Source of the DNA: a virus | DNA: 64,000 nt | Direction: 5' to 3' (one strand) | Virus record (IMG/VR): IMGVR_UViG_3300026512_000002 | Location: 62,001 to 126,000 of that record | Shown here: in pieces, positions 2,801 through 64,000 of the stretch | How the letters are laid out: each line of letters opens with the position of its first letter | Position numbering within the stretch: the stretch's first letter is position 1 | Program-made: the position numbers and the translations under genes | Notes under the pieces: generated by a model | The model's database searches: none | What the model was told of the DNA's origin: nothing | The model's input: the letters and a program-made list of their open reading frames with translations, nothing else

Positions 2801-5707
2801 TTATACAACAACACCATCTATAGTAATAGTTATTTTGTCACATATACTATTAACATCACCAATATTACTATAGTTAACCCATGTATTGAAATCGGTACTA
2901 ATATTAATATTGAATCTATCATCGTTAAATTTTCTATAAGTTAATGATAACAATTTATCTTTCAAATCATTTAATATATTTGTGGTATTGTCGTTTAAAT
3001 TTTTATTTGGAATATCAACTCTATCAAAACCTCTGTTGATAAAGTATGTTTTAAGTTCATTATATCTCATATTTTTAATAATATTATATTCGTTATACAA
3101 TATGCTTATGATTAAAAATTTAAGCTGTATATCTCTATCATATACATAATCCTCAAGGTCATTATAATCATTTCTAAGATTATCCAATACAGTTTCATCA
3201 ACAAGCTTTTCTTCTGCTATAATATTTGTCATAGCCGATTTCTCACTATCTATTGAATCGGATAATGCTATAGCGTTGAAAACCCCCATATTGGTATACA
3301 TATCTACTTTGTCATTAACATATATATCTGTTATAACATCATCATAAATATCTTTATATGTGTAACCATTCAACTTATCACCATAATCCATAAATAATGT
3401 AATTAGTTGATCACCGCTCATATCTGTAATTTTATTATTTATATATTCGTCTAATTTATTAGCAATTGTTTTAATATATGCTTCATCATAAATAGCGTTA
3501 GCTGGTACTCCAAAATTAGTTTCTACATATTTTTTTAAATTAGCTATCATATTAACATTTTGGAGAGCATTATCATATATGTATGATAAGATATTATCTC
3601 TAAAATATTTTTTAATACGTGTTTTTAAAACATTTGTATCATACACATCATATCTATTATCACTCACTCTATCCATTAAGATAGTTTCTAATACCGGAAT
3701 AGGATCTAAACTAACATGTTCTTTTTCACGTATAATGTTATCCAACTTATCATATGTGAATATAGCTGGTTTAATTATATTACCAGCGTTATCTCGTTTA
3801 TAGTCTTTAACTAAGATATATTTAAAAACATTTAATGATGTTACATTGAACACGCTAAGTATTCTAGTAATAACGTCTGTTGTACCTCTTGTTTTAATTA
3901 AAAATTGTAAGTTTCGTATTATATCAATTTGATATATTTTAGGAATATTGTTGAATGTTGTTATCCCATGTGAATACAAAATATTTTTTAAATCACGCTC
4001 TGTCATAAATTCAGCTTTATATTCAAACTTATTATCCAAATCAATATATTTTAAAATAGCTGATATGATAATCAGATAGTTTACTAGGTCATCATAGTTA
4101 CTGTACATTTCGAATGCTTTATCATACATGGTTGTCATAAAATATCGCATTGTTTGATAGTAGGCTGTTAGAAATCTATTTAATTCAGCACTGTTGAGAA
4201 TGCTATTATCATAATGAACAATATATTTATCAGAATATGTTCTAAGTTTAGTTAGTTCGGCACCTCTCAACCACATCATTTTATAATACTCATTAGTTTC
4301 TCTATATATATTATATTTGTTTTCTTTAAACATTATAACTTTACTGTTTATTTTGAAACCATTTAAAATAGACTTATGTGTTAGCTCATCTAATGAACAA
4401 TAATTTATCAACTCGATGTCACCAGTTAGTATGGAATGACCAACTAACATGTAATTATATTTGAATGAAATATGATCAAATGTTGTTAAAATATTACCAC
4501 AGTTGTGACAAACATATTCTTTCACACCTAAATTATTATACTCTTCAACATACGGTGTGAAACATTTATCACAAACAGTATCTAGTTTATATGCTTTTAT
4601 ATTGTCGTAAGTAGAAATATTTCCCGAAACATAATATAGTTCCAGTGTCGAACGATCATAAGCTAGTTGAATAGTATTATTATTTTTATATATTTCACAT
4701 TTAATTTTACCATCATCGTATGTTTCATAAATAGCTTCATACTCATTAATGATAATATTTCTATAATAATCTTTTAATGTTACATTATTAGAAATATCTA
4801 ATATTATTTCATGTGATTTGTAGTATGGTGTATTATCAGCTATAATACTAGTATATGGTTTAATATAATTATAATTAATAGTTGGTTCTAATGTAGCTTC
4901 ATACTTATCAATTAACGTATAATTAACACCATCATATTTAAACACTCTAGTATCAGACATTTTTAAATCATACAATGTTTGTAAAGGAACATAGTCAAAC
5001 ATTCCTATATTTGCTTCTTTATAATATAATGCAGTAGCAACATCATATATTTCCAAATATACTGTATCTATAGAAGCGGTATATATTTCATAACCATTAC
5101 GTATAACATAATCAGTATACAATAGATCATTAGTGGTGTGGTTAAAAATCGCATCACATGTAGCTTTGTTATATTTATTATAAGTGTCAATTTTATAAAT
5201 ATCGTCATATGTCAATGATTCAGCATATGTTGCAACTCTATATATACCACCACTAGTTCTTTTAATATATATGTACTCGTATTCACTAGCAACATATTTG
5301 TCTATAGGTTTATAATAACCATTTTCTTTTACATATATTTTATCAGAATAAATTGTAGTATTATTCAAATATGTTTCGGAAGAAATTCTATTAAACCAAT
5401 CAGCAACATATCGTACACCAGCGTAACCATTTCTTTCATCATCATTCAGTTTTATAAAAACATTATTAGGATCATTGACATATAAACTATATCCATCAAT
5501 AATTGCTCTATTACTATATTTGATTTTATCAACATCGCTCATAATAAAACCGTCACCCAATACAGCAATATAATGTGATGCTCTAATATTAGACTCTTTA
5601 GTTTCAGCTAACATAGCTTTTTTTTCATTTTTTATGAGAATTGTTTTAGAAAAATTTATCAGATCTCTAAAAATTGATAAACCTTTTTCATACTTACGGT
5701 TATCCAT
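2801..5707 (-). CDS. Putative baseplate/tail structural protein, 968 aa
   Basis: A long Tyr/Asn/Asp-rich protein typical of jumbo-phage virion components. Residues about 370-405 hold a Cys4 zinc ribbon (CDKC then CHNC). Near residue 610 is the motif LIKTRGTTDVITRILSVF, which resembles the K(N/T)RGT..a...LL segment of phage baseplate and tail-P2-I-like proteins. That is the basis for the call; overall similarity was not tested. The ribosome site upstream of the ATG is weak. It stands alone on the minus strand with a convergent terminator downstream. Confidence 0.55.
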   Translation of the reverse strand: MDNRKYEKGLSIFRDLINFSKTILIKNEKKAMLAETKESNIRASHYIAVLGDGFIMSDVDKIKYSNRAIIDGYSLYVNDPNNVFIKLNDDERNGYAGVRYVADWFNRISSETYLNNTTIYSDKIYVKENGYYKPIDKYVASEYEYIYIKRTSGGIYRVATYAESLTYDDIYKIDTYNKYNKATCDAIFNHTTNDLLYTDYVIRNGYEIYTASIDTVYLEIYDVATALYYKEANIGMFDYVPLQTLYDLKMSDTRVFKYDGVNYTLIDKYEATLEPTINYNYIKPYTSIIADNTPYYKSHEIILDISNNVTLKDYYRNIIINEYEAIYETYDDGKIKCEIYKNNNTIQLAYDRSTLELYYVSGNISTYDNIKAYKLDTVCDKCFTPYVEEYNNLGVKEYVCHNCGNILTTFDHISFKYNYMLVGHSILTGDIELINYCSLDELTHKSILNGFKINSKVIMFKENKYNIYRETNEYYKMMWLRGAELTKLRTYSDKYIVHYDNSILNSAELNRFLTAYYQTMRYFMTTMYDKAFEMYSNYDDLVNYLIIISAILKYIDLDNKFEYKAEFMTERDLKNILYSHGITTFNNIPKIYQIDIIRNLQFLIKTRGTTDVITRILSVFNVTSLNVFKYILVKDYKRDNAGNIIKPAIFTYDKLDNIIREKEHVSLDPIPVLETILMDRVSDNRYDVYDTNVLKTRIKKYFRDNILSYIYDNALQNVNMIANLKKYVETNFGVPANAIYDEAYIKTIANKLDEYINNKITDMSGDQLITLFMDYGDKLNGYTYKDIYDDVITDIYVNDKVDMYTNMGVFNAIALSDSIDSEKSAMTNIIAEEKLVDETVLDNLRNDYNDLEDYVYDRDIQLKFLIISILYNEYNIIKNMRYNELKTYFINRGFDRVDIPNKNLNDNTTNILNDLKDKLLSLTYRKFNDDRFNINISTDFNTWVNYSNIGDVNSICDKITITIDGVVV

Positions 5708-6223: not shown

Positions 6224-6319
6224 ATCGTTTGTTAAAAATTAAAAAAAAAGTTAAATATATATTATACGTGTATATAGCAATATCGCTATACTTTAATTAT
6301 TCCGTAGGAGGAAATATGA
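6224..6319 (+). repeat. 96-bp leader repeat, copy 1
   Basis: This segment is identical to 7046-7141. It covers an A-rich stretch, the TATATATTA motif, a GCAATATCGC inverted element, the GTAGGAGGAAAT ribosome site and the start codon itself. Two different proteins are thus expressed from the same leader, pointing to recent duplication of an expression cassette. Confidence 0.9.
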
Positions 6320-7906: not shown

Positions 7907-8389
7907 ATGAAAAAAGATATTAAAATATCCTCCTGGGAGGATATTAAACAAAAAAGATCCATAAGGAACGTTCTTATGGATCTTTTAAAAAAAATAGAAG
8001 GACGGGCGTATCCTTCTATTTACCAATCATTTACCAGTTTTACTCAATGGTCAGATTTCGAAGACTATTGTGAAACTAGTAGAATTATCGTCCTATGGGA
8101 CGATAATAAAGATTGGTATTTGCTTTTAGGGATTAGTGGTCGTTCCTTAGAAGTGATTGATTTAGCCTCATTACGAGGTTTAAGTCATATTAATATGGAA
8201 GAACTTTTAAAAAAGTTCTTTTTAATATTAAAAGACCATAATATTGAAAAAATTTTAATGGATATGAGGGAAACCACCTCATATAAATTCATTAAGATTT
8301 TTGATAATAATATTTGGAAAATTATTAAAGACCAATCATATGATTGGGAAGGTGAAATTTTCCATGATATTATTATCAGAAAAAGATAA
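7907..8389 (+). CDS. Hypothetical protein with hairpin-saturated coding sequence, 160 aa
   Basis: The ATG at 7907 follows TATAGGAGGAAAT; an in-frame ATG at 7853 lacks a site. The product begins MKKDIKISSWEDIKQKRS and is not recognised; its C-terminal half has a faint GNAT-like look, which is speculation. The gene is a chain of hairpins: AATATCCTCC/GGAGGATATT, AAAAGATCCATAAG/CTTATGGATCTTTT (14 bp), AAATAGAAGGA/TCCTTCTATTT (11 bp), ATTATCGTCC/GGACGATAAT (10 bp), ATATGAGG/CCTCATAT and a 16-base palindrome at 8332. The stop codon lies inside a 12-bp hairpin. Confidence 0.7.
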   Translation: MKKDIKISSWEDIKQKRSIRNVLMDLLKKIEGRAYPSIYQSFTSFTQWSDFEDYCETSRIIVLWDDNKDWYLLLGISGRSLEVIDLASLRGLSHINMEELLKKFFLILKDHNIEKILMDMRETTSYKFIKIFDNNIWKIIKDQSYDWEGEIFHDIIIRKR

Positions 8390-8407
8390 ACGCCCTTATC
8401 TTTTTCT
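8378..8407 (+). terminator. Stop-codon-spanning 12-bp hairpin
   Basis: AGAAAAAGATAA pairs with TTATCTTTTTCT around ACGCCC. The 5' arm contains the stop codon of the preceding gene. It ends in a T-rich arm rather than a separate T tract. Confidence 0.6.
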
Positions 8408-8415
8408 GTGTTCCC

Positions 8416-8499
8416 AAAAAAAAAGGCAGCTATTCATATTCATATTCATATTATTATTTTTTAGTGATCTTTTTTAATATCGCTGCCTTTTTTTTTTAT
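8416..8499 (+). terminator. Long-loop terminator with ATTCAT repeats
   Basis: An A run plus GGCAGC (8425-8430) pairs with GCTGCC (8482-8487) followed by a T run. The intervening 51 bases are AT-only-like and include three copies of TATTCA. It lies between the gene ending at 8389 and the large structured RNA region. Confidence 0.65.
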
Positions 8500-8584
8500 A
8501 TACTACATATATAATATATATTTATATATATAGTATATACGCATACTATGTATATATATTATGCGTATATATATATACATATAT

Positions 8585-9062
8585 AAGTTGGCATATAAGA
8601 GATATCTCACCCTAGATGGGTAGCTAACAAGTATATGTATAAATTTTAAGTAGAGGACTAGTGGGCATTGCCAAAGGGCGTGATGCATTATAAGCATTAA
8701 GACTACAAATACTACTACTTAACGTCACCTTAACGTTACTAGGGAGACTAAAGCAAAAAAGAGTCTATAAATATATTCACCGTCTAGAGGGAGACGTAAA
8801 AATATCATAACTAGGAAAATTGGTCACCGTGGAGAGCGTAGTTGACAATTTCCTATGTTCCCTGATTAGGAGTACACTATTATCCTATAATAAAGAATAG
8901 TGAAAGGCGTTAGAAGGAGTAAGTAACGCTGAAGTCGAAACAATCTTTATACTGGAGGAGTATAAGTTATAGTAGGCGCAATCCATGATAGTTTCATCAT
9001 GGCGGTATATAGGTCAACATATATATCGATATAATGTAAATCTGAGACTAATATAGGAGGTT
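8585..9062 (+). ncRNA. Large structured RNA candidate (leader of the 802-aa gene or stand-alone)
   Basis: About 480 bases without a plausible ORF but full of helices: CGTCT/AGACG (8781-8796), a long bulged helix 8812-8826/8842-8855, CACTATT/AATAGTG (8875-8902), GGCGTTA/TAACGCT (8906-8930), TTATACT-GGAGG-AGTATAA (8947-8965) and CCATGAT/ATCATGG (8983-9002). Composition is less AT-rich than ordinary intergenic DNA here. It runs up to the ribosome site of the gene at 9065. It has the size and density of the large ornate phage RNAs (GOLLD and ROOL classes), but membership in either is not established. Confidence 0.6.
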
Positions 9063-9064
9063 AT

Positions 9065-11473
9065 ATGTCCAGGTTTATGAGAAAAAAACAAGAGATCGAG
9101 TATGAAATCGCAGCGTACACTAGCGATGGAATGCTCGATCTCAATGACGCTATGCAAGTATCTCAATGTCGAGATAGTATAGTGTCTGTTAGAGAGAATC
9201 TTAAAAGATCCAAAGTATTTTGGGGAGAGGCTCTCTTAACACAGTTTCTAGATGCTGTGTCTAAAAAAACATCTAAATCGTTCTTTAGTGTATTCACATT
9301 AGAGAGCGAGGTCCCCTTACTAAAAGACATGTTAGGGTGGCCAGTGAACTATGCTGAAGTAGTTCACTATGCGGAAGTGAGGTGGAATTCGCAGTTAGTA
9401 ACACCTTCGAAGAGAAGATTTTATCCGAAGGATGCTGCTAATTATTACTACGATTTTGCAAATCTTAGTGATAAACCTTATTCAATAAATTTCTTAGCTA
9501 AAGACATTAGTAAGGTTAAGAATTTATTGAACATCTGGGCCGAAAACCATGGCCGGACTGCTACTATGGTAGATGTAGCAGAATTCTTTACTTTTGTACG
9601 GAGTAGAGAAATGGTAAGTAAAAGAGCTATGAAAAAACTCTTTTACTTTAAGGTTGTCCAAACCTTAAAATTGGACAATAGACTTTTAGAAAGCGAATTT
9701 AAGTTAGGAAATAAATTTGCTGTATACGAGTCTACTAAATTTGATCTTCGATTACTATTCACCACTTTTGGTGGTGATGTAGGAATGGTAAAAGATGCAT
9801 TAGCATATGTCCACAAGCTAATGCGTGATTATAATGTAGAAAGTTATAATTACGGAGAACAAATTTGGGGACTATTTTCGCATGTAGATTGGTATTATTA
9901 TACCGTGATACTGCGAAATCGTCCAACAACAAATGTGGACGGACTATGTACAACCCTTTATAAACTTAGAGACGCCTCTAGTAGGATCGAAAAGTTTAAA
10001 AAGGAAATAGTTAAATTCATTAGAATTCCTGAATTTTCGAATTTAGAAGATGATTTTAACTGTTATTATTTCCAAGACAGATATTTGTCTCGGAAATATG
10101 TGAACATAGTTCAAAAAAAGATAGCAGAAACAAACTCATTGTTACCCGCAGTGAAAGTTTTTGCTAATCTTGATATACCTAGATCTGAATTCTCCAATTC
10201 AGTATATGGGTATATAAAATTCCTAAGTAAAAAGAGTATATCAGAAAAAGCAACTACGATATACTCAAATTACTTAGGTAGAAGACCTAGTGTCGATCTC
10301 GGCAAAGGTATGGAGCATGGTTATAATTATATGGCCAAAAGTTCTATCCTGAGAAAGATCTTAGGCATGATAGATAATAAAGCCGCTTGGAAGGTTTTTA
10401 CATCTATTATAAAGTCCTTTAGGAAAGCTAACCCCGGCACAGTTGTCGAGGAACATGCTATTTTAGGGGCGCTTAGTATAGCTGATATTTTTGGTACTGC
10501 TTGGAAAAGCACCTTACCAAAAACAGCTAACGAAAATGGAAAACTTGTAATAGAACAACCTTCTATTACTTGGTTGAACAATTTCGGGTTGCAGTATAAT
10601 GGAACTGCAACTGCTGAGGAAAAAGTCCTTATGAGTAATATCTTGAAAAAGAGAAAAACTTATAAGGCTTCTGGAAACAATATTTCAATATTGGAGAGTG
10701 ACCTAGAGTTCTTCTCAAAAATACTGGAAAGGAGTTTCAAGAATAAAAAACTTATAATATCCAAATTAGGAAATAATCCTAAATTAAAGGATATTGTAAG
10801 TATACTTGATGCCGTTTTATATCCGGGATTAAGTATTGAAGTTGGCTATTGGGCTAGCCAATTTTCATTATCTGTAGATGATGCAGAATATTTGCAAAAA
10901 TTTATGGATACAAATGATTACTTTAAAAACTATGAAGACTTGTCTATAAAGACTAGTAATAATAGTTATAAAGTATCAAAGAGCGGCTATAGTATAGTCC
11001 GTCTCTTAGCCCACGACACAGAAGGTGCTGTATTGGGTAAACACACCGGTTGTTGTCAACACCTGCAAGGTGCAGCTGATAGTTCTGTTAGATATGGCTA
11101 CAAACAATCTAACAGCTTCTTCTTTAAGGTTTTAAATAAATCTAATGAAGTTGTGGCTATAAGTTGGGCCTGGGTGGATAGTAAAAGTAATCTTGTTTTC
11201 GACAATGTAGAACGAAAACATGGAAGTGATGTAGCTAATATCATTGATATAGTTGCAGAATATGCTTTCACTTTTGCTGGAAGATTTAATTCTGTCCAAA
11301 TAGGTCTTGGATTTGGGGGTTATATCTTCGATGGCTTGAATGAAAAGTTCGCACCGGTACTATCATCGGATATGGGAACTTTTCTTATTGGCAATCCTTA
11401 TACGGATGCTGCTAATAGTAGAGTATATTTGGTCCCTCCAAGGGGAGCCTTATATGCTAAAGCCATCATATAA
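9065..11473 (+). CDS. 802-aa protein of unknown function, hairpin-saturated gene
   Basis: Starts MSRFMRKKQEIEYEIAAYTS after ATAGGAGGTTAT. The first about 600 residues are helical with no recognised domain. The C-terminal 170 residues contain LGKHTGCCQHL (near residue 657), then FFFKVLNKSNEVVAISWAWVD and VFDNVE, a beta-strand pattern reminiscent of acyltransferase-like (GNAT) folds with an added Cys pair; this is inference. The coding DNA is a nearly unbroken series of RNA hairpins from end to end, for example 9343-9368, 9616-9648, 10222-10278 (two nested helices), 10547-10569, 10750-10801 and 11085-11115. Base composition is visibly richer in G and C than most neighbours. Confidence 0.75.
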   Translation: MSRFMRKKQEIEYEIAAYTSDGMLDLNDAMQVSQCRDSIVSVRENLKRSKVFWGEALLTQFLDAVSKKTSKSFFSVFTLESEVPLLKDMLGWPVNYAEVVHYAEVRWNSQLVTPSKRRFYPKDAANYYYDFANLSDKPYSINFLAKDISKVKNLLNIWAENHGRTATMVDVAEFFTFVRSREMVSKRAMKKLFYFKVVQTLKLDNRLLESEFKLGNKFAVYESTKFDLRLLFTTFGGDVGMVKDALAYVHKLMRDYNVESYNYGEQIWGLFSHVDWYYYTVILRNRPTTNVDGLCTTLYKLRDASSRIEKFKKEIVKFIRIPEFSNLEDDFNCYYFQDRYLSRKYVNIVQKKIAETNSLLPAVKVFANLDIPRSEFSNSVYGYIKFLSKKSISEKATTIYSNYLGRRPSVDLGKGMEHGYNYMAKSSILRKILGMIDNKAAWKVFTSIIKSFRKANPGTVVEEHAILGALSIADIFGTAWKSTLPKTANENGKLVIEQPSITWLNNFGLQYNGTATAEEKVLMSNILKKRKTYKASGNNISILESDLEFFSKILERSFKNKKLIISKLGNNPKLKDIVSILDAVLYPGLSIEVGYWASQFSLSVDDAEYLQKFMDTNDYFKNYEDLSIKTSNNSYKVSKSGYSIVRLLAHDTEGAVLGKHTGCCQHLQGAADSSVRYGYKQSNSFFFKVLNKSNEVVAISWAWVDSKSNLVFDNVERKHGSDVANIIDIVAEYAFTFAGRFNSVQIGLGFGGYIFDGLNEKFAPVLSSDMGTFLIGNPYTDAANSRVYLVPPRGALYAKAII

Positions 11474-34929: not shown

Positions 34930-36258
34930 ATGGGTAAACAAATAGTATTCGCAAATATGCTCAAGAAAGAGATGAATGGTGCGAAAGTTATCAGATCTCC
35001 AAAAATGATTGATGACAAAGGCAATTTTACAGATGATGGTATATTTAGCAGATCTATTTTTGGAACATTGCATAAATCATCATATTCATGTAAATGTGGT
35101 GAAATTACTGGTAAGTTCATGGAGGGTATAGTATGTGATAAATGTAAAACAAAAGTAATAGATGAAACACACTACGGTAAAACTGGTTGGATTTCATTAG
35201 ATGATTATAGGATCATACATCCAGTTTTATATAATTTTATAGCTAAGATTGCACCTATAGAGAAAATTATAAGTAAAAATAATGTGAAGAAAATTAAATA
35301 TAGTGGTATTGGTTTAGATCAATTTAGATTAAACTTTAAAAAGATATTAGATTTTTATTATAATAAAAATAAAAATAAAAAAAGAAAAAAAATAGATAAA
35401 CATTATAAGATCATTATAGATAATATGGATAAAATTTTTATAGACAAAATATTTATAATGGATATATCATTACGTATAGCTGTGATAAAAAACAATATGT
35501 TAAAATATGATGATATAAATATAATGTATAATAATATATTGCGTTCATTAAAAGACATAGATAAACCTGGTGTTATAGATGATGTTAAGAAGAACTTAAT
35601 ATTTGATGTCCAAATGATATATAATAACATCTACAAATATGTCGTGAAAGCTATATCCGGTAAAAGTGGTATGACCAGAAAATTTTTATTGGGAGCTAGA
35701 ACAAATTTTTCATCTAGATCTATAATTGTTCCAGGATTACCAGATCATAAAATTGATGAAGCCCATATACCATATATAACTTTTCTAGAATTATTTAGAT
35801 ATCATATAATACATCTACTTGTTAAAGAATTAGGATATGACCATATGGAAGCTCAAAAAAGAATATGGAAAGCTATGTTGGTGTTTGATGAAAAATTGTA
35901 TAATTTAGCAACTAAAAAATTGATAGTTGATAGAAATACTATGATAATTCTAAATAGAAATCCAACAATAGCTGTAGGAAGTATTATGGGATTAAGAATA
36001 GGTAAAGTTAAAAAAGATATAAAAGATTATACCACTAGTATACATAATAACATTTTGCCAGTATTAGCAGCAGATTATGATGGAGATGTTTTAAATATAA
36101 TACTTATGATAGATGATAAGTTTGGTGATTGGCTAACTCCTTTAAAACCTAGTAATTTAATAATAGATGTTAAAACTGGTCATTTTAATAGTTCATTTTC
36201 ATTAAAACATGATAGTATTACTGGTTTATACACTTATCTAAATCAAGAACACGCGTAA
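34930..36258 (+). CDS. RNA polymerase beta' subunit, N-terminal piece
   Basis: 442 residues matching the first third of bacterial beta'. DDGIFSRSIFG (about 35-45) precedes a zinc ribbon with Cys54, Cys56, Cys69 and Cys72 in the native CxC-CxxC spacing. RTNFSSRSIIVPG lies near 257 and LNRNPTIAVGSIM near 345. The metal-binding loop reads AADYDGD (Asp382, 384, 386), i.e. NADFDGD with N to A and F to Y. The protein stops soon after, at the GLYTYL equivalent of GLY.(L/M)T, so bridge helix and trigger loop must be in another polypeptide not in this window. This is the split architecture of jumbo-phage polymerases. Confidence 0.92.
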   Translation: MGKQIVFANMLKKEMNGAKVIRSPKMIDDKGNFTDDGIFSRSIFGTLHKSSYSCKCGEITGKFMEGIVCDKCKTKVIDETHYGKTGWISLDDYRIIHPVLYNFIAKIAPIEKIISKNNVKKIKYSGIGLDQFRLNFKKILDFYYNKNKNKKRKKIDKHYKIIIDNMDKIFIDKIFIMDISLRIAVIKNNMLKYDDINIMYNNILRSLKDIDKPGVIDDVKKNLIFDVQMIYNNIYKYVVKAISGKSGMTRKFLLGARTNFSSRSIIVPGLPDHKIDEAHIPYITFLELFRYHIIHLLVKELGYDHMEAQKRIWKAMLVFDEKLYNLATKKLIVDRNTMIILNRNPTIAVGSIMGLRIGKVKKDIKDYTTSIHNNILPVLAADYDGDVLNIILMIDDKFGDWLTPLKPSNLIIDVKTGHFNSSFSLKHDSITGLYTYLNQEHA

Positions 36259-36349
36259 TTATAAATTAAAAAAAAAACTATTGAAAAAAAAATATTATAA
36301 AAACTTGCAATCATACCAATTAATATGATAATATGTCTATAATCACCTC

Positions 36350-36865
36350 GATTATTATATAGTCGAGATAAAAAGGAAGCTTAGATATATACGGTTTTCT
36401 TGATGAAACAATCTTTACCGATAAAGATTGTGTGTTAGTTTCTAAGGGTTTGTATAAGCTTCAACCTGCTAGCATAATCAAGGTATGCATGAGAGCTATT
36501 GGGCACATATATAACATAGCACTATTATGTGTCACGCTCATATCCCGTCCTGTTCTATTATAGAAGATGTGGTGATATTGTTCATAGTGTGATTATATGA
36601 ACATACTTTAAAGGCAGACCTTGCAGTATATTAATATCACACACATTCCCTCGATTAGGGGGATGTGCTATACTCAGATTTTAAACTTTAATAAAATACA
36701 TTAATATTTATAAGATTAAGCCTGTAAGGCTTAGTATTATAAATATGGGTGTGTGGTAATAAAGTAGTGGAAATGTAAATGTTGGTAGCCCGGCTTCTTA
36801 AAAAGCAAGGGCTTGAAACATTGGAATGAGAACGGATACTGATTAAATCCAACATATATTTCAAT
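36350..36865 (+). ncRNA. Large structured RNA candidate
   Basis: The 739 bases between the beta' piece and the SbcD-like gene hold no plausible ORF but about 500 bases of dense pairing: CTCGA/TCGAG, GAAGCTTA/TAAGCTTC (36376-36383/36455-36462) enclosing ACAATCTTT/AAAGATTGT (36408-36431), ATGAG/CTCAT enclosing CACATA/TATGTG, a bulged helix near 36568-36579/36633-36643 enclosing GTTCATA/TATGAAC, CCCT/AGGG near 36650, TAAGCCT/AGGCTTA (36717-36733), and ATGTTGG/CCAACAT closing a domain from about 36777 to 36857. Size and organisation suggest a large ornate RNA. It is not recognisably RNase P RNA, tmRNA or a group I intron. Confidence 0.6.
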
Positions 36866-36924
36866 AATATATTAACATTGTAACATATACTATTATATGG
36901 TATAAAAAAAAAATAAAATTTATA

Positions 36925-36953
36925 TTGACGAAACTAAATCAGAACCGTATAAT
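36925..36953 (+). promoter_or_regulatory. Sigma70-type promoter before the SbcD-like gene
   Basis: TTGACG, a 17-base spacer and a perfect TATAAT, 44 bases upstream of the start codon at 36998. This is the best match to the bacterial housekeeping promoter that I found and implies use of host polymerase. Confidence 0.65.
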
Positions 36954-36997
36954 TGGTTTGTTTAAAATGTATACTTTAACATTAAAAAGGAGATATT

Positions 36998-38074
36998 ATG
37001 CTAAACATATTAAATATTGGCGATATACACTTTGGTAATAATGATAGTACATTATTATACAATGAATTGAAAAAATATTTTATAAATAAAATAGATTCAT
37101 TTGATAATAAAATAGATTTAATAGTCATTAATGGTGATTTAACTCATAAGAAATTATCATTTAATGATAAAACATCTACACTTGTTTTAAAATTTATACA
37201 GAAAATAGCCCAACACAAAGATATAAAAATAAGAGTAGTACAAGGGACATTCTCACATGATGCTAATCAATTAGATAATTTATGTGTTATCGAACACCCA
37301 GATTTAAAAGTTCATAAAACAGTAACTGCTGAATATATTAATGGTTACAAAATATTGTTTATACCTGAAGAATATCCCAAAAATAAAGATGAGTACTATC
37401 AAGAATTTTTCAATATCAATGAAGATGATAAATATGACTTAGTATTTATGCATGGTACATTTAAAAAAGTATCATTTTTAAATCAAGTAATATTATCTGA
37501 AAAGAATATTAATTCGGCACCTATATTTGATGAAGAACCTATGATGAACATTGTGAAAGGGCCTATTATATGTGGACATATACATGTTTATAAAAATTTT
37601 AAAAATAAGATATATTATGCTGGTTCATATACTAGAACCAATTTTGGAGAAGAAGATCCCAAAGGTTATTTGCATATAGAGTACGATATTGATGGTACTG
37701 GTAATTATATTGTCGATAGAGTTATAAATAAAGATGCTCCAAAATATACTAGTATAGATGTATCTAAAATAAAACACTTAACTGCTGAAAAAATATCTAA
37801 AGTAATTGATGAATTTAGCGATAATGGTAAAAATAAAATAAGAATCACTAATGTTGATAGAAATAGTGTTGTATATCAAGTTGTTTCTAAAACAGGTAAT
37901 GCTAAAATAAAAACAATTAAAGATACTAGTGAAATTACTAAGGACGATACATATGATTTTGTATTTGAAGATAATCAAGAATTACCAAATGAGTTATCTA
38001 AATATATAGAGATAAAGTATGGATTAAATATCACCCCTGGTGAAATTGCGAATATTATAAGTTCTGTTGAATAA
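36998..38074 (+). CDS. SbcD/Mre11-like nuclease subunit
   Basis: 358 residues with calcineurin-type phosphoesterase motifs in order: GDIHFG (about 8-13), INGDLTHKK (near 47), QGTFSHD where most family members have GNHD (near 84), FMHGTF (near 150) and ICGHIHVYKNF (near 190). In phages this protein pairs with an SbcC/Rad50 ATPase (gp46/gp47 type) to process DNA ends. No such partner is in the window. AAAAGGAGATATT precedes the start; a promoter lies upstream. It leads an operon with the helicase. Confidence 0.85.
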   Translation: MLNILNIGDIHFGNNDSTLLYNELKKYFINKIDSFDNKIDLIVINGDLTHKKLSFNDKTSTLVLKFIQKIAQHKDIKIRVVQGTFSHDANQLDNLCVIEHPDLKVHKTVTAEYINGYKILFIPEEYPKNKDEYYQEFFNINEDDKYDLVFMHGTFKKVSFLNQVILSEKNINSAPIFDEEPMMNIVKGPIICGHIHVYKNFKNKIYYAGSYTRTNFGEEDPKGYLHIEYDIDGTGNYIVDRVINKDAPKYTSIDVSKIKHLTAEKISKVIDEFSDNGKNKIRITNVDRNSVVYQVVSKTGNAKIKTIKDTSEITKDDTYDFVFEDNQELPNELSKYIEIKYGLNITPGEIANIISSVE

Positions 38075-46764: not shown

Positions 46765-46934
46765 TTTTAAATATAAGTTGTGTTATTTTAAAATATTTTA
46801 TTTATTTTTTAATGTTTGATGAATATTATTAAAATCGTAATACTATAACATATACTTATATATTATAGTATTGAGTCATAATAATGTGACTCGTAGTGCC
46901 AGCTATTCTGGTTAATTTTATTTTGGAGGTCATT

Positions 46935-47156
46935 ATGGCTAAAAAAATAAATTATCATTCTTTTATTAAGATGGTTGAGAAAAACCATCTTGTAGAAGAA
47001 TGGTTCGCGACTGGTGTCGCAATTGCTTGTACTGAAAAATGTGCAAGTAATTGCGACATAGCCAATGTGGGGAGGTATGTTAATTGTGCCGCCCCATGGC
47101 GTGCCGGTCGCGAATTTATTGAAAAGAAATTAGGGGTGATCGTAATAGACGATTAA
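46935..47156 (+). CDS. Cys-rich small protein, hairpin-saturated gene, 73 aa
   Basis: Start MAKKINYHSFIKMVEKNH after TTGGAGGTCATT. The protein has Cys residues in ACTEKCASNCD and VNCAAPW; no family recognised. The whole gene folds: AAGATGGTT/AACCATCTT, GTCGCAATT with CTTG pairing to CAAG and AATTGCGAC, GCCA+TGGGG with CCCCA+TGGC, and GAAAAGAAATTAGGG with the 3' sequence CCCTAGTTTCTTTTC, which includes the stop region. The 5' leader also folds (GAGTCA/TGACTC). Composition is richer in G and C than neighbours. Confidence 0.65.
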   Translation: MAKKINYHSFIKMVEKNHLVEEWFATGVAIACTEKCASNCDIANVGRYVNCAAPWRAGREFIEKKLGVIVIDD

Positions 47157-47290
47157 CCCTAGTTTCTTTTCCTGGTAGTCGACAGCTACCATGAGTCAAA
47201 AAATGATGTCACGCTCAACCCGGAGCGGAAAAGAGATAGGGTATACAACCACACTATGTGGTTGGAAAGAAACCATTAGGTTTCTTTTTT
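47155..47290 (+). ncRNA. Structured 3' region with switch-like alternative pairing and terminator
   Basis: The element CCCTAGTTTCTTTTCC (about 47157-47172) can pair upstream with GAAAAGAAATTAGGG inside the gene or downstream with GGAAAAGAGATAGGG. Inside the second fold are GGTAG/CTACC and GCTC/GAGC hairpins, making a multi-branch RNA of about 85 bases. Then CAACCACA/TGTGGTTG and the terminator AAAGAAACC-ATTA-GGTTTCTTT plus T run (47266-47292) follow. It may be a processed small RNA or a regulatory 3' UTR. Confidence 0.5.
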
Positions 47291-47391
47291 TTTAATTTAA
47301 TAAATAATTTGGATATATATTAATACCATAATAACATATATAGTTATTATAATGTCTATCTTGTTTCGATCTATGTTTATATGGAGGTTTT

Positions 47392-63528: not shown

Positions 63529-64000
63529 TTAATTATTTGTATGAAAAATTCTTTTTCTATGTGCTGATTTCCAGTAATTCTTTTTCCAATACTCTACTAT
63601 ATCTCTTCGTTTTTCAGCCATACCTTCAAATTGACTTAGATTAAGTTCTAATGAACCAAAAGCTGTTGTTATATTTTCATACTGTTTTCGTATATTATAA
63701 ATAGCATCTTTAACATCAACTAATGCTAATTCCTTAAACTCATCTTCCATATTTGTAGGTATAGTGTAAAATGTGTCTGGGTGTATAGTATGGAATGTCA
63801 CTTGCATTATATTACCAACATATGTTTTACGTGGATATATACGTAATATGTTTGGTCGTATAAATTCACTTGTAATTGGAGTTGTCATACCAGATGTTAT
63901 ATTATTTCTCAATTGTCGATTAACAACAGCACCGTCAAAAGCTAGACCTGGATAAAATTCCGAATTATCATGTGACATTACAAGTCTTCTAAGTGATAAT
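63529..64000 (-). CDS. Hypothetical virion protein, possibly partial at 5' end
   Basis: From the ATG at 63978 the product is MSHDNSEFYPGLAFDGAVVN, but no clear ribosome site precedes it and the frame stays open (LSLRRLV) to the window edge, so the true start may be outside. Contains IYPRKTYVGNIMQVTFHT and a helical C-terminal FEGMAEKRRDIVEYWKKN. Unrecognised; structural by neighbourhood. Confidence 0.55.
   Translation of the reverse strand, partial: LSLRRLVMSHDNSEFYPGLAFDGAVVNRQLRNNITSGMTTPITSEFIRPNILRIYPRKTYVGNIMQVTFHTIHPDTFYTIPTNMEDEFKELALVDVKDAIYNIRKQYENITTAFGSLELNLSQFEGMAEKRRDIVEYWKKNYWKSAHRKRIFHTNN

Follow-up and report, generated by a model that had tools for sequence, protein, structure and literature searches.

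What occupies the long spacer between an RNA polymerase fragment gene and a nuclease gene in this viral record? The window, meaning the whole 64,000-nucleotide stretch of DNA that was analysed, covers positions 62001-126000 of a 227,696-base IMG/VR record, and a first-pass annotation had described the spacer as the seat of a structured RNA of around 500 bases. The spacer and the genes that flank it are defined as follows.

34930-36258, + strand: beta' fragment of a phage multisubunit RNA polymerase, 442 aa, uninterrupted ORF (PF00623, E 8.4e-8)
36259-36997: spacer between the beta' fragment gene and the SbcD-like nuclease gene
36998-38074, + strand: SbcD-like metallophosphoesterase gene, 358 aa (PF00149, E 7.5e-6)

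The beta' fragment shares 33.3% identity with phiR1-37 g274 (RpoC, N-terminus) and 34.4% with Goe21 rpoC_2, while the SbcD-like protein is 37% identical to the AR9 metallophosphatase/SbcD-like protein. These identities point to an AR9/PBS1-like jumbo phage (228 kb), a distant relative of AR9, PBS1 and phiR1-37. According to the annotation of six AR9-like relatives (AR9, Goe21, BpSp, LPJP1, phiR1-37 and MarsHill), the next gene follows the beta' gene after about 10-80 bases, and the long spacer is therefore peculiar to the source phage among those. It holds no + strand ORF of at least 60 aa. No close relatives of the source phage were found among viral contigs via the nuclease and beta' proteins, and blastn against named phages returned no match for the window spacer or for the spacers of five loci introduced below (L017, L005, L064, L013 and L002). 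In AR9 itself, the beta' gene g270 (L072, 2411-4588) is split and contains the HNH endonuclease gene g271; the window homologue is continuous.

Examination of the window with cmscan at the gathering threshold revealed no Rfam family. A covariance search of the spacer, which the first-pass annotation had proposed as a check, yielded one significant match at a relaxed threshold, and this match spans a complete model.

36527-36641, + strand: EGFOA-like core, spanning all 108 positions of the Rfam model (RF02955, 35.7 bits, gathering threshold 37.7)

The match has an E-value of 1.1e-4 in 851 bases, with the runner-up Rfam family at E 0.14, and of 6.8e-6 in the 227,696-base record, where it is the sole RF02955 match with E <= 0.001. 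Its score nevertheless lies 2 bits under the gathering cut-off and outside formal membership, and we therefore speak of an EGFOA-like RNA, or a divergent member, rather than a formal Rfam member. Other loci with clear architecture also score under this cut-off (L028, 37.0 bits; L061, 36.9 bits; L062, 34.6 bits). Among 14 control genomes, an RF02955 match occurred in 0 in the record search, in 1 with the first 31 loci described below, in 1 with the next 8 loci and in 3 in the named-relative search at E <= 10, with no control ever above the cut-off. At E <= 10, no EGFOA match was obtained in eight named phages related, in full or in part, to the source phage.

EGFOA was reportedly among the 224 candidate structured RNAs described by Weinberg et al. 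in 2017. Our literature search on EGFOA and RF02955 found no function for the class. Since EGFOA is already in Rfam, the window RNA would add a divergent member to a class that is known but uncharacterised, and we put the probability that the spacer carries such a divergent member of this class of phage noncoding RNA at about 0.85.

To place the window RNA among its relatives, patterns derived from conserved letters were used, which detected 31, 7 and 16 loci in viral contigs and 1 in bacterial genome contigs, amounting to 39 different loci that were fetched (L002-L032 and L057-L064). Because the patterns were built from letters common to the Rfam consensus and the window, the shared letters themselves prove nothing; the RF02955 model does not depend on this sampling. 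RF02955 scored above the cut-off in 7 of the first 31 loci and 1 of the next 8. Fifteen metagenomic loci were kept by RF02955 score or by eye, before counting (L002, L005, L012, L013, L017, L020, L022, L023, L027, L028, L058, L061, L062, L063 and L064), and together with the window they form set A1. Two of them with weak Rfam scores, L012 (12.4 bits) and L027 (15.4 bits), were retained by eye because of their resemblance to L023, while L016 (12.9 bits) was dropped by eye and L018 because it nearly duplicates L002; all 24 discarded loci were scored to serve as a negative control. Set A3 and the covariance model R1 were both made from 14 relatives without the window, L058 being excluded owing to a long insert.

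The EGFOA class is present in many otherwise unrelated bacterial viruses. A beta' homologue was found in the 15 other EGFOA records only as the bacterial-size gene of G039, so that carriage of the class is not tied to phage RNA polymerases. The sole bacterial-genome match (L064, 854-2017) adjoins a tubulin/FtsZ-family gene and a transposase-like gene, neighbours which suggest that a phage contig may have been binned with Selenomonas, and in 189 genomes from the family of the matching bin RF02955 was found only in that bin itself.

The core comprises the following elements, several of which overlap.

36545-36552, + strand: conserved CCGUCCUR motif, CCGUCCUG in the window (CCGUCCU in 16/16 members of A1; part of the search patterns)
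36550-36553, + strand: pseudoknot strand CUGU, partner 36614-36617 (covariation tests)
36553-36565, + strand: P1 hairpin (constrained fold)
36566-36579, + strand: P2 outer stem, 5' strand, partner ~36633-36646 (constrained fold, pair probabilities)
36580-36602, + strand: P3 hairpin GUUCAUA/UAUGAAC (pair probabilities 0.78-0.92)
36603-36629, + strand: P4, AUACU/AGUAU around the 17-nt loop UUAAAGGCAGACCUUGC at 36608-36624 (5/5 pairs form)
36614-36617, + strand: pseudoknot strand GCAG inside the P4 loop (covariation tests)
36633-36646, + strand: P2 outer stem, 3' strand (constrained fold, pair probabilities)

When conserved single strands were held open, the folds revealed a plan common to most members, with P1 after CCGUCCUR and an outer P2 around P3 and P4, which is less regular in L002, L017, L022 and L063. 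The bulged long-range helix near 36570/36638 in the first-pass annotation corresponds to this P2 (36573-36579 with 36633-36639, probability ~0.5-0.7). P4 is a stem of up to 5 bp that closes a fixed 17-nt loop, KUAAAGNYAGACCnnGn, and a pseudoknot, CURn/nYAG, links this loop to the conserved motif. Across the 16 members, P4 pairing is found in 71/80 cells (0/20,000 permutations of the 3' arms as high) and pseudoknot pairing in 59/64 cells (0/20,000 permutations as high), and the 11 group representatives give 49/55 (0/20,000) and 42/44 (12/20,000), respectively; relatedness remains in these permutation tests, and the figures are therefore not probabilities. At the third pseudoknot pair, 11 members have G-C and 5 have A-U, giving pairing in 16/16; the two strands are self-complementary (CUAG/CUAG) in L002 and L017. 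On A3, the covariation score reached 0.724, compared with 0.208 when shuffled and at most 0.112 when slid. Moreover, the three inner P4 pairs are present in 14/15 kept loci versus 2/24 dropped pattern matches (L018 and L060), L018 being the near duplicate mentioned above. These comparisons show that P4 and the pseudoknot have been kept through compensatory changes in 16 diverse members, and the window retains both: its P4 arms and its pseudoknot form although the patterns demanded neither. The refuting condition of the first-pass annotation, related phages with no conserved pairing in this spacer, gave a mixed outcome: the six AR9-like relatives have no such spacer, whereas unrelated phages do retain the pairing.

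R1, to which the window did not contribute, matches 36545-36629 with 32.9 bits (E 6.4e-7), while the second-best place in the window has an E of 0.21; it also finds L058, likewise held out, at E 4.6e-5. A partial P4-loop match, AAAGCUAGACCUGGA at 63938-63952 (11.1 bits, E 0.21), lies opposite an ORF and is probably due to chance. Both CCGUCCUG and UAAAGGCAGACC are present in the window, against CCGUCCUR and GUAAAGNYAGACCUGG in the class, their letters being partly in the search pattern, and the window loop deviates from the usual EGFOA letters in having UUAAAG for GUAAAG and UUG for UGG. A CCCAG-like motif shortly 5' of CCGUCC is absent in the window and also in several relatives (e.g., L013 and L022), and we do not count it as essential to EGFOA membership. 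Overall, the window RNA resembles RF02955 in its full-length match, in CCGUCCU and UAAAGNYAGACC and in the order of P1, P2, P3 and P4; it differs in being a member with AT-rich stems in a jumbo phage that encodes a multisubunit RNA polymerase of its own, and the pseudoknot described here is absent from the nested structure line of the Rfam model.

How far the RNA extends beyond this core is a separate question, for which the predicted elements on either side are listed first.

36347-36367, + strand: hairpin CUCGAUUAUUAUAUAGUCGAG, no T run after it (fold)
36376-36462, + strand: 5' domain, GAAGCUUA/UAAGCUUC arms around the hairpin at 36408-36431 (piece z -1.35)
36641-36668, + strand: downstream hairpin ACACAUUCCCU/GGGGGAUGUGC (piece 36640-36672, z -4.67)
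36686-36764, + strand: long hairpin rich in AT, may belong to the RNA (z -6.02 for 36673-36780)
36775-36860, + strand: 3' domain, AUGUUGG/CCAACAU arms, possibly part of the RNA (z -2.55)

The region 36340-36870 has a fold energy of -152.2 kcal/mol (z -5.73, 0/100 shuffles as low). Among 128 control 300-nt stretches of the window, the mean z was -1.52 (sd 2.38), with several at -8 to -11, and this strong background folding of the AT-rich window makes fold energy alone weak evidence. The structured RNA of ~500 bases claimed earlier therefore stands for its central 115 nt, where the EGFOA match and the covarying pairing exceed chance, whereas the rest folds well but with an energy that is unexceptional in the window. 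The letters of the arms proposed in the 5' domain are present (GAAGCTTA at 36376-36383 and TAAGCTTC at 36455-36462), but their helix has a probability of ~0.02 and enforcing it costs ~3 kcal/mol; the small hairpin described inside them, ACAATCTTTA/TAAAGATTGT at 36408-36431, does form (pair probabilities 0.76-1.0), albeit with 10 bp and not 9.

In the relatives, the 150 nt after the core fold with z < -2 in 10/16 members (mean z -2.83), compared with 5/16 (mean -1.28) for the segment just upstream. A hairpin with a G-rich 3' arm lies 3' of the core in 13/16 members versus 5.9 (maximum 10) in shuffles, its window counterpart being the one at 36641-36668. For L028, L013 and L061, hairpins flanking the core show 9 pairs changed on both sides versus 3.4 in shuffles, with the structure taken from the same three sequences, and this covariation indicates an RNA longer than the Rfam model, at least in that group. 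Beyond the core, these three loci are the only ones for which conservation is shown. The long AT-rich hairpin at 36686-36764 showed no conservation elsewhere in the comparisons made, and 36673-36860 may or may not be part of the window RNA. A word search outside the core of the 16 members returned nothing but AT-rich words that scarcely exceeded the shuffles. A universal long-range closing helix (e.g., GGUAGAC/GUCUACC in L017, by eye) was tried and rejected, its mean z over the 16 members being -0.22, not above chance.

The transcription and the mode of action of the RNA were approached through its promoters and neighbours.

36305-36332, + strand: candidate sigma70-like promoter, weak, TTGCAA-N16-GATAAT (CCGUCC ~206 nt after the implied start)
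36925-36953, + strand: promoter of the SbcD-like gene, TTGACG-N17-TATAAT (11/12)

The second of these bears out the earlier statement that the downstream neighbour has its own promoter. Candidates of the first kind number 10 versus 6.5 (sd 2.5) in shuffles, and the site at 36305-36332 is not significant by itself. L017 and L022 carry a perfect TTGACA-N17-TATAAT, from which transcripts would begin 241 and 193 nt ahead of the core, respectively, in a scan made without a shuffled control. No terminator-like site was found in 36200-37050. For AR9, a published account gives the promoter rules as AAATATATATTAT-6N-G (early) and AACA-6N-TA/G (late) (PMC5312081); no clear AR9-type early promoter lies at the RNA, the letters at 36286-36298 carrying 2 mismatches, and a search for recurrent words ahead of 33 genes, aimed at phage promoters, met sequences too AT-rich for a usable motif. 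Elsewhere in the window, exact copies of the early core AAATATATATTAT occur at 6253, 7075 and 7867 (+ strand) and at 8511, 40682 and 50308 (- strand), and matches with at most 2 mismatches number 128 against 84 expected, an excess from which the source phage may be taken to keep AR9-type early promoters. Another word, AACATATA, is over-represented in the window (40 versus 21.6, 0/100 shuffles as high), with copies at, among others, 36851, 36882, 46847 and 47333, some directly following the RNA and some preceding other spacers.

In the relatives, the core lies in long gaps with few or no ORFs, beside genes for terminase, DNA polymerase, endolysin, DNA methyltransferase/RNA ligase or tubulin, and the first downstream ORF (at least 95 aa) is on the opposite strand in 6/14. 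These ORF-poor gaps, varied neighbours and opposed downstream ORFs favour a trans-acting phage RNA over a leader, and we regard action in trans as probable. The RNA would be transcribed with the beta' gene and/or from the weak promoter near 36305-36332, would fold into a compact multi-branched body of ~200-500 nt and would act in trans during infection, perhaps after release from the end of a transcription unit. Our best guess at its role, to which we give rather low odds, is that the conserved loop and pseudoknot offer a binding surface by which the RNA serves as a scaffold or decoy for a host protein or ribosome-related component, the partner itself being a guess.

Four other explanations were weighed. 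The RNA could act in cis within the 3' UTR of the beta' mRNA, serving its stability or processing. An upstream ORF of at least 95 aa is co-directional in 12/12 of the relatives that have one (15 examined) and in the window, which fits a 3'-UTR role too, and from the beta' stop to the next gene there is no terminator-like site and only a weak promoter for the RNA itself. However, the upstream genes vary (endolysin-like in L005 and L020, a DNA methyltransferase in L027 and no PHROGs match in L028, L013 and L061), the perfect promoters of L017 and L022 would start transcripts at the distances from the core given above, and a simple UTR would not normally be expected to contain so large a conserved fold, so that we consider this reading unlikely. 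It is very unlikely that the RNA serves the SbcD-like nuclease gene as a 5' leader, whether riboswitch or attenuator: it does lie upstream of that gene on the same strand, and an exonuclease/metallophosphoesterase-like gene also adjoins the element in L062, yet the nuclease promoter is situated downstream of the RNA, the L062 neighbour is on the opposite strand, and opposed downstream ORFs recur among the relatives. This L062 neighbour (3155-4138) is of the same kind as that of the window and occurs in 1/15 relatives, which may be chance.

An AT-rich, low-complexity spacer that folds by chance, with a false-positive EGFOA match, would agree with the score below the gathering threshold, with the background z of the window (-1.52, sd 2.38) and with the lack of the spacer in six AR9-like relatives. 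Set against this are the E-value in the record (6.8e-6), P4 arms and a pseudoknot that form without any demand from the patterns, and the rarity of the inner P4 pairs among dropped matches (2/24), which leave it highly improbable. Least credible of all is an intron or intron remnant, suggested by the split AR9 homologue, whose intron carries an HNH gene, since the window beta' ORF is continuous and its alignment with Goe21, where the gene is uninterrupted, runs to residue 434 of 442, Rfam gave no group I/II intron match in 36200-37050 even at E 10, and the spacer lacks any + strand ORF of at least 60 aa.

The divergent EGFOA-like RNA can also be compared with other large phage RNAs. ROOL and GOLLD are described as large ornate phage RNAs that form cages and are often found near tRNA islands (PMC12286853). 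They resemble the RNA described here as large structured phage RNAs whose function is unknown, and differ in their frequent location by tRNA islands as given there, for ARAGORN found no tRNA in the window or in the 16 EGFOA loci; nor was there a ROOL or GOLLD Rfam match in the window or spacer. Within the excerpted text of a jumbo phage review from 2026, the expression of non-coding RNAs by phiKZ is the sole such mention (PMC13282480). EGFOA might be the conserved heart of a further large ornate phage RNA class, with CURn/nYAG, self-complementary in L002 and L017, as an intermolecular contact that joins copies into a particle, a reading we hold to be quite doubtful. If it were true, the Rfam model would capture no more than the interior of an RNA 200-500 nt long, whose site of synthesis in this jumbo phage would adjoin the gene for one of its own RNA polymerase subunits.

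Within the window, spacer 8389-9065 is likewise folded and of similar length but has no EGFOA or other near-cut-off Rfam match. The earlier view that the spacer RNA differs from the RNA at 8585 was confirmed, with RF02955 reaching 35.7 bits at the core and giving no EGFOA match in 8380-9080. An AT-rich palindrome at ~8522-8584 dominates the weak Rfam matches of that spacer. A further spacer, 47160-47295, follows the ORF 46896-47156 and shows very strong folding (z -11.3 on the + strand for the 300 nt starting at 47001); it ends with a terminator-like hairpin, AAAGAAACC-ATTA-GGTTTCTTT, and a T run, making it a candidate small RNA, and Rfam gave no convincing match for it. The 11-mer TGTCACGCTCA occurs exactly at 36530-36540 and 47207-47217, both in folded spacers, and a search of all 227,696 bases of the record located its first 10 letters at no other place.

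Since no similar spacer was found in the named phage records searched at the DNA level, a cultured host system must first be found. EGFOA has been an orphan RNA class, and it is now seen in a 228-kb AR9-like phage and in about a dozen diverse phage loci. Our analysis adds a covarying pseudoknot and, from one group of three, evidence of further conserved hairpins outside the Rfam model, which together give a better defined molecule. If this RNA is trans-acting, it would represent another case, comparable to ROOL and GOLLD, in which phages devote hundreds of bases to a single folded RNA.
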